Source: Candidatus Parcubacteria bacterium
GTDB taxonomy: Bacteria; Patescibacteriota; Patescibacteriia; Patescibacteriales; UBA12075
DNA length: 60,970 bases
NCBI GenBank assembly: GCA_023132155.1
Contig: JAGLYP010000005.1
Span: 1-60,970, forward strand
Direction of reading: 5' to 3'
Shown: positions 10,849-12,045 of the stretch, one piece after another
Layout: each line of letters starts with the position of its first letter
Position numbering within the stretch: the first letter of the stretch is position 1
Translations under genes and position numbers: made by a program
Notes under the pieces: model-generated
Seen by the model: only the letters and a program-made list of their open reading frames with translations
Databases searched by the model: none
What the model was told of the DNA's origin: nothing

Positions 10849-12045
10849 ATGAAAATTGAGGAAGAAAATAAAAATTTAAATTTAAAAAAAGAAGTTTTGC
10901 CTGAAAAGATGAAAGAAAAGGAAGATGTGATTTTTGCGGATGAGCTTGCCAATGCGCGGAAAAAAATGCGGATTTGGATGTTTGCCGGTGCCGCGTGTTT
11001 TTTAGCCGCGCTTATTTTAGCGATTGTAGTTTTTGTTTTGATGTCCAGGGAAACAAAAAGTAAAGAAGAAATCAAACCCGCGCCGGAAGTATCGCCGGAT
11101 ACGGAAAAAATAATAGATAATAAAAATAAGGCGATAAGAATGATTGACGGCGTTTATGTTGAAGAAGAATTTGAAAATATTTATCCAATCGCGGTTATGA
11201 TTGATAATCACCCTGACGCCAGGCCGGCTTATGGCTTGGAAAAGGCGCAATTAGTGATTGAGGCGGAAGCTGAGGGCGGAATTACCCGGTATATGGCTTT
11301 TTTTGCCGGCAATGAAAATGTTAAAAAAATCGGGCCAATCAGAAGCGCCAGGCCGTATTTTATTGATTGGTCAAATGAATTGTCAGCGTTTTATACGCAT
11401 GTTGGCGGAAGTCCGGAAGCGCTGGCTAAGATGATAAAAGAAAAGGCTTTGCATATTAATGAATTTTATAATGGAACATATTTTTGGCGCGATACCGAAA
11501 AGGATGCGCCGCATAATATCTATTCATCATTGGCTAATTTGCGGAAGTATTTAGAGAAAAAAGAGTTAGGCGAATCGGAATACTCTGTTTGGAAATATAA
11601 GGATGAAGAAAAAAAATCAGTTAAGGAAACAACGGTATCCGCCGTCGCTGAAACTATGGCGGACGAAGAAAATATTACGATTAATTTTTTATTATCTGAA
11701 TTTAAAGTTGATTGGAAATATATCCCGGAACAAAATAGTTATTTAAGATATGTTGGCGGCAAAAAACAGCTGGTTAGTGATAATCAAGAAATTTTTGCCA
11801 AAAATATTATTATTCAATACGTTGATTCCGAAGTTCTTGACGAAGAAATGCGGCAAGAATTTTATTATGTCGGCAAAGGAAAGTCTTTGGTTTGTTTGGA
11901 TGGCGCGTGTGAAAAAGGTTTTTGGAAAAAGAAAGATTTGAATTCAAGAACTAAATTTTATAATTTGCAAGATGATGAATTTGAATTCAATCGCGGGACG
12001 ACTTGGATAGAGGTTGTTAACCCGGGGTATGAGGTTGAATATTAA
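10849..12045 (+). CDS. DUF3048 domain-containing protein
   Basis: 398 aa; PIAVMIDNHPDARPAYGLEKAQLVIEAEAEGGITRYMAFF, KIGPIRSARPYFIDW. Confidence 0.85.
   Translation: MKIEEENKNLNLKKEVLPEKMKEKEDVIFADELANARKKMRIWMFAGAACFLAALILAIVVFVLMSRETKSKEEIKPAPEVSPDTEKIIDNKNKAIRMIDGVYVEEEFENIYPIAVMIDNHPDARPAYGLEKAQLVIEAEAEGGITRYMAFFAGNENVKKIGPIRSARPYFIDWSNELSAFYTHVGGSPEALAKMIKEKALHINEFYNGTYFWRDTEKDAPHNIYSSLANLRKYLEKKELGESEYSVWKYKDEEKKSVKETTVSAVAETMADEENITINFLLSEFKVDWKYIPEQNSYLRYVGGKKQLVSDNQEIFAKNIIIQYVDSEVLDEEMRQEFYYVGKGKSLVCLDGACEKGFWKKKDLNSRTKFYNLQDDEFEFNRGTTWIEVVNPGYEVEY
11635..11674 (+). repeat. in-frame hairpin element G1 inside DUF3048 gene
   Basis: GTATCCGCCGTCGCTGAAACTATGGCGGACGAAGAAAATA; 33/40 identical to 15330-15369. 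Confidence 0.7.

Follow-up and report, generated by a model that had tools for sequence, protein, structure and literature searches.

Palindromic elements that insert in frame into genes are known from Rickettsia as RPEs, and intragenic REPs are known from several bacteria (PMC3733652, PMC2229807). RPEs, notably RPE-4 and RPE-6, which are identical to the CGTC-4 and CGTC-1 REPs, are dispersed, often situated in frame in conserved genes and also intergenically, and patchily distributed among relatives (PMC3733652, PMC2229807); those of the RPE-1 type are 105 to 146 bp long. The CGTC REP families 1 to 4, which include RPE-4, RPE-6, and dRS3, are short hairpins with a 4-nt tag, CGTC (or TGTC/CCTC), an 8- to 9-bp stem starting with AT, and a CCA tail; intragenic copies have been reported and no dedicated transposase is known (PMC3733652). 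GTAG REPs are single hairpins of 20 to 50 nt with a 4-nt unpaired foot and an internal loop in the stem, which insert without target duplication at CT-type junctions (PMC8266576). Cleavage by purified TnpA-REP enzymes takes place at CT adjacent to the hairpin, and for one of the REPs a TTTA loop together with a T-A pair is important (PMC8266576).

A shorter element was found in the window, which is the whole 60,970-nt stretch of DNA from a Candidatus Parcubacteria bacterium that was analyzed here. An earlier note had stated that 40 nt at positions 11635-11674 agree with positions 15330-15369 at 33 of 40 positions, in the same frame of two open reading frames, and exactly this match count was reproduced. 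When the window was shuffled 20 times with its dinucleotides preserved, the best match to the 40-mer at 11635 reached 22 to 24 of 40 positions, and 17 of 3,000 random 40-mers of the window had a non-self match of at least 33, most of them, as judged by position, in other dispersed or local repeats. The 33/40 match is beyond chance. The repeat is real, but its unit comprises only the inner 30 nt of the 40-nt segment (11638-11667 and 15333-15362); the GARGAAAATA tail common to both 40-mers is mostly outside this unit.

The first copy, TCCGCCGTCGCTGAAACTATGGCGGACGAA, is located on the plus strand at 11638..11667 (40.5 bits, E 1.1e-7) in frame +0 of a gene for a DUF3048 protein (10849..12045, plus strand; Pfam PF11258 with E 4.6e-44 and PF17479 with E 4.3e-21). 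It encodes SAVAETMADE at residues 264-273, in the linker between the N domain (104-239) and the C domain (278-387) assigned by Pfam. The predicted structure agrees with the proposal that the repeat sits in a linker just before a DUF3048 beta-strand, with the copy in the low-confidence linker 255-272 and a strand following at 275-279, a prediction of moderate weight since it was based on 12 sequences and gave one good model of five. The second copy, TCCACCGTCGCCGAGGCTATGACGGACGAG, at 15333..15362 on the plus strand (33.0 bits, E 1.3e-5), encodes STVAEAMTDE in frame in a gene for a 281-amino-acid protein (14631..15476, plus strand) without a Pfam or NCBIfam family, which has orthologues in the genus and one weak relative in the family (28% identity). 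The TCCGCC...GGCGGA hairpin attributed to the repeat is present at 11638-11667, but not at 15333, where the stem is damaged and the fold is unlike that of the consensus. A related sequence had also been noticed at 7404-7435. This is indeed a third, intergenic copy, TCCTCCTTCGCTAAAGCTTCGGAAGGACAAG, with a corrected extent of 31 nt on the minus strand, 7404..7434 (38.6 bits, E 3.4e-7 in the genome); it contains one extra base in the right arm and is covered by no open reading frame of at least 70 amino acids.

Degenerate pattern searches of the genome of the window and of relatives yielded 61 copies for an alignment, which defined a repeat unit of exactly 30 nt or 10 codons with the consensus TCCKCCTNCGCTRAAGCTWCGGMGGACAAG. 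Conservation extended over these 30 positions, and the information content was at background level on both flanks. The consensus is an imperfect hairpin in which an outer stem of 6 bp and an inner stem of 2 bp are separated by a 3x3 internal loop; the apex is TRAA and the hairpin is followed by a 4-nt CAAG tail. It encodes the peptide S[AS]xA[KE]A[TSM][AE][DG]K. As single-stranded DNA it folds into ((((((...((....))...)))))).... and the complement, CTTGTCCGCC, folds alike with a 5' CTTG foot. In an alignment of 48 sequences, 93% of the cells were paired, five pairs were changed on both sides, and the covariation score of the whole structure was matched by none of 500 shuffles; when the structure was slid along the alignment, the paired cells dropped to 30-53%. 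Rfam gave no matches at the three window copies. Subthreshold Rfam matches to microRNA precursors elsewhere in the window were judged to be chance. A subfamily, CCCCACTTCGCTAAAGCTACGCGGGGCAAG (PHFAKATRGK), in which the GC-rich stem is shifted, also exists in the same genome (G000:C30:158-187, G000:C35:2691-2720, G000:C28:205-234, and others).

The three copies named earlier are part of a much larger family. Copies were detected by a degenerate pattern followed by a covariance model. The pattern matched 20 times in the 1.23-Mb genome of the window, against no match for the reversed pattern, and the covariance model identified 41 copies at E<=0.01, so the expected excess of such hairpins in the genome exists. 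The covariance model found copies in 45 of 59 relatives, with up to 59 per genome, and none in the remaining 14, which are all complete or near-complete genomes. Across Patescibacteria, 127 of the 295 genomes sampled carried the family at E<=1e-4. At least 120 stretches in named genomes had the exact degenerate consensus. Among the matches listed were Doudnabacteria, Falkowbacteria, Zambryskibacteria, Uhrbacteria, and other Patescibacteria, members of other phyla (Lentisphaerae, Verrucomicrobia, Cloacimonadota, Omnitrophota, Acidobacteria, and Bacteroidota), and about fifteen records of Bradyrhizobium, mostly isolates. Bin contamination could be the source of some of the matches in metagenomes, but not of those in isolates. 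The element was also present on eight viral contigs; a megablast search of plasmids with the 30-mer gave no match, which is weak evidence as this mode needs an exact word of 28 bases. By eye, several intergenic copies adjoin apparent tRNA gene ends (G000:C30:31313-31342, G000:C4:9490-9519, L030, L045, and L352).

Comparison of empty and filled sites indicates how the copies arrived. In the DUF3048 proteins of 12 genomes of the family, the linker residues occurred in three, all from the genus of the window, and were cleanly missing in the other nine. Two genomes of this genus, G001 and G002, possess a second copy close to the N terminus of the DUF3048 protein, ESASAKAMADKE, which is not present in the gene of the window. 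At the codon level, the linker copy in the window directly follows ACA ACG GTA, while those in G001 and G002 are about ten codons further upstream, after AAG or AAG AAT GAG; given these different codon positions, the DUF3048 linker was hit at two points. The copy in the second host gene (14631-15476) is intact in the G001 orthologue and eroded in that of G002, so that this copy was inherited and has decayed. A copy in the gene for AtpD is at the same N-terminal place in the genome of the window and in G034, which belongs to another family of the same order, and the copy in G034 is interrupted by a second one. Empty and filled sites differed by about 30 nt without flanking homology. At the nested insertions and at the N-terminal insertion into DUF3048, no target site duplication was visible, and each insertion added 30 nt. 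The empty sites in DUF3048, together with the excess in the genome, support the proposal of a hairpin family with intergenic and in-frame copies that is tolerated in coding sequences.

Coding copies were called by the length of the open reading frame, and those of at least 115 amino acids formed the in-frame set of the window's genome. Its 41 copies were distributed to frame +0 (22 copies), +1 (2 copies), and -1 (2 copies), with 2 ambiguous and 13 non-coding or doubtful cases, and copies were on both strands. According to Pfam, the host genes encode FtsK (two copies), NusA (three copies), ValRS, CysRS, AtpD, a sugar transferase, LigA, a Mur ligase, UvrC, and a pseudouridine synthase. Other-frame copies were those in UvrC (-1), LigA (+1), and the Mur ligase (+1). 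Compared to solved structures, the copy in ValRS falls between two aligned stretches, and that in UvrC corresponds to a nine-residue gap in the sequence of the solved structure. The relatives provided 100 distinct copies, with 61 in +0, 4 ambiguous, 3 in +1, 3 in -1, 1 in -0, and 28 in no long open reading frame; 61 of the 68 unambiguous coding copies were therefore in +0 (binomial P 2.5e-29 versus 1/4), and in the pooled non-nested set 91 of 105, numbers that count copies rather than events and include inherited copies, albeit in differing host genes. The most plausible cause of this bias is purifying selection against +1 and the minus frames. For every copy in the -1 frame, which is just as hydrophilic, there were about 20 in frame +0; this excess is larger than expected and may indicate an additional strand preference. 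One open reading frame (L268) contains three identical head-to-tail copies encoding SSDLETMADK three times (G000:C8:36564-36653), and this array is a recent in-place triplication.

Pairing within the hairpin was evaluated in 102 in-frame +0 copies of the order. The pairs 0/25, 3/22, and 11/14 were Watson-Crick pairs in 87, 64, and 95 of the 102 copies, respectively, and the maxima in 10,000 shuffles were 71, 58, and 87; this comparison must be read with the caveat that sampling models favor the stem and that subfamilies such as SSxAKAxADK break pair 3/22. Pair 3/22 occurred as all four Watson-Crick pairs and couples residues 2 and 8 as A.A, S.E, T.V, or P.G. The change of pair 11/14 from T-A to C-G affects two third codon positions and is silent at the protein level. 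This covariation, including that of the silent pair, indicates that the hairpin is maintained as a nucleic acid inside genes.

The element also inserts into itself. When each of 291 distinct copies (30 nt) was excised and the junction was rescored, 23 copies turned out to be nested inside another copy, all of them co-oriented and none antisense, with insertion positions 18 (18 cases), 12 (3 cases), and 6 (2 cases) of the outer copy; none of 843 random-excision controls revealed an outer copy. All three positions are preceded in the consensus by GCC or GCT (GCY). Nested cases were also present at copies that were called non-coding or other-frame by open reading frame, so that selection for the reading frame alone is not sufficient to explain the nesting pattern. 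Outside of nests, GCY preceded 14 of 57 non-coding copies versus 3.3% of random positions. A strict target-sequence model was rejected since in-frame copies are mostly flanked by AAA, AAG, or GAA codons, and with many in-frame copies at a weak target motif, GCY is a preference and not a rule. In Bradyrhizobium, several copies have GGATTGCT on their left and TCGCTNCGCTCGCAATGAC on their right and are thus embedded in a different palindromic repeat, of the ATTGCGAG type (L120, L154, and L180). These comparisons of sequences show that insertion is precise, falls in frame for the most part, and leaves no visible target duplication, with self-nesting at fixed positions and in one orientation.

How does this element compare to the known systems? 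It shares with the RPEs the palindromic nature, the dispersal, the frequent in-frame position in conserved genes, the additional intergenic copies, and the patchy presence. As in RPEs, in-frame insertions are tolerated and homologues exist without the insert, visible in DUF3048, in ValRS and UvrC compared with structures, and in the frame counts. Judged by the published description of RPEs, the sequences are unrelated, and at 30 nt the element is far below the length of RPE-1; unlike RPEs, it occurs in Patescibacteria plus several other phyla, inserts into its own copies at fixed sites, and has no CGTC tag. A short imperfect hairpin of 30 nt with up to 59 copies per genome is a REP-type feature, and like GTAG REPs it has a 4-nt unpaired foot, a stem with an internal loop, and CT-type junctions, while target duplication is absent. 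It differs from these REPs in being not mainly extragenic and not flanking Y1 genes, and a GTAG 5' of the hairpin is absent; the foot is CTTG (minus strand) or CAAG (plus strand), with nothing conserved outside the 30 nt. TGTC/CGTC can be read in CTTGTCCGCC, but the stem is the 6-bp TCCGCC/GGCGGA and neither the stem starting with AT nor the CCA tail of the CGTC REPs is present. Bacterial MITEs (ERIC, NEMIS, and others) are also non-autonomous and may be fused to genes in frame (PMC2229807), but they are longer, carry inverted repeats at their ends, and usually duplicate the target site. As the GTAG and CGTC definitions do not apply and no target duplication was visible, the element was not filed into these families. 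In its behavior it nevertheless resembles REP/RPE-type elements. No earlier description of the element in Patescibacteria was found in the text of the open-access papers searched. The family very probably represents very short, non-autonomous, REP/RPE-like mobile hairpins that are tolerated mostly in frame.

An enzyme provided in trans might cut a single-stranded hairpin form of the DNA and join it on the 3' side of a GCY trinucleotide, and copies in other frames would mostly be lost by purifying selection. The peptide in the sense frame is small, polar, and composed of Ala, Ser, and Lys, which should be harmless in linkers, loops, and termini. An insertion may be tolerated because its length is divisible by three, no stop codon interrupts at least four of the six frames, and the sense peptide is harmless. 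The cutting enzyme could quite possibly, with a chance somewhat short of even, be a RAYT/TnpA-REP or IS200-type Y1 HUH transposase that works on the hairpin in its single-stranded form and cleaves at CT. Insertions follow GCY, usually with CT at the junction, as fits TnpA-REP cutting at CT (PMC8266576), and the minus strand starts with CTTG and continues as a hairpin whose TTYA apex has outer bases that covary between T-A and C-G. Two Y1 proteins are encoded in the genome of the window, a RAYT-like and an IS200-like one, neither of them above the RAYT cutoff. In 59 genomes, the copy number was correlated with the number of Y1_Tnp matches when kinship was ignored (Spearman 0.40, P 0.0016), while the number of DDE_Tnp_1 matches as a control for the mobile load was not (0.08, P 0.54). 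Against a Y1 enzyme, there is no GTAG tag on the element, and an element was within about 1.5 kb of only 1 of 30 Y1_Tnp loci, which is not above chance. The presence of Y1 as a requirement was rejected because three copy-rich genomes, G048 (52 copies), G036 (16 copies), and G055 (12 copies), are without a Y1_Tnp match.

Alternatively, the copies may have been spread by recombination, gene conversion, template switching, or tandem duplication instead of transposition. Hairpins are hot spots of replication slippage, and the perfect triplication in L268 demonstrates that in-place duplication does occur; this process is nevertheless unlikely to account for the family, since copies reside in unrelated genes with no flanks in common, empty and filled sites lack flanking homology, and nesting always keeps the orientation of the outer copy and uses the same three positions. 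Maintenance mainly for a function of the RNA or protein, such as mRNA stability, a terminator-like hairpin, or a useful spacer peptide, would agree with the covariation that keeps the hairpin inside genes and with a one-frame bias that is stronger than simple tolerance might predict. The patchy presence among the 59 relatives, the decay of copies (15333 and its G002 orthologue), and the unrelated genes carrying them make such a function an improbable main reason compared to tolerated selfish DNA. That the two proteins share a conserved or convergent acidic linker and the similarity of the DNA is incidental has a nearly negligible probability: the peptide is of low complexity (A, S, K, E, D) and in a disordered linker, but the same 30 nt exist outside of genes, in other frames, and on both strands, positions 11 and 14, both synonymous third positions of codons, change together as a base pair, and most DUF3048 homologues of the family are without the peptide. 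Starting from the REP/RPE-like mobile hairpin, a more extensive reading can be proposed tentatively, being as a whole rather doubtful: a 10-codon mobile hairpin crossing phyla may have coevolved with translation, transposing site-specifically as single-stranded DNA to positions after GCY with a preference for hairpins including its own, with a sequence tuned towards one benign frame, and therefore spreading mainly via coding DNA, where the residues of the added peptides would covary through pairing in the DNA and not through protein function.

Further repeats were present in the window. A near-perfect palindrome of 66 nt, KELSSETSELSS, at 12500-12565 is in frame in a prmC-like methyltransferase open reading frame (12042-12956, minus strand), and a peptide similar to the one it encodes, LELSSEASELSSK, is located inside the RAYT-like protein of the genome (L276:6704-7363, minus strand); because of these two occurrences, a second in-frame palindromic family seems to be present. 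A dispersed repeat beginning with TTAATTTATAGTCAAGGAATTTGAATATTCCCGACTACTGTTAGTGCCC, 63 to 86 nt long, exists in five copies that are 80-100% alike, on the plus strand at 7669-7754, 32613-32698, 39856-39941, and 43692-43777 and on the minus strand at 20047-20120. An inverted pair of repeats of the TGTCATTGCGAGCGCC type at 4599-4708 resembles a CGTC/TGTC-tagged REP dimer, and direct plus inverted copies of ATGCTAATCCGCGAATAAATGCTAAT are at 7306-7349, 20774-20799, and 31751-31782.

Rickettsia is the best-known case of in-frame palindromic selfish DNA, and here a different and much shorter element is found at scale in the ultra-small Patescibacteria, with essential enzymes among the hosts of in-frame copies. 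The nesting at fixed positions provides a handle on the mobilizing mechanism, and the exact copies in Bradyrhizobium isolates make mobility testable there. Covarying residues or shared low-complexity peptides in proteins of Patescibacteria can reflect DNA hairpins and not protein contacts or homology, which is a warning for their interpretation, and selfish DNA of this kind may be a source of new linker peptides.
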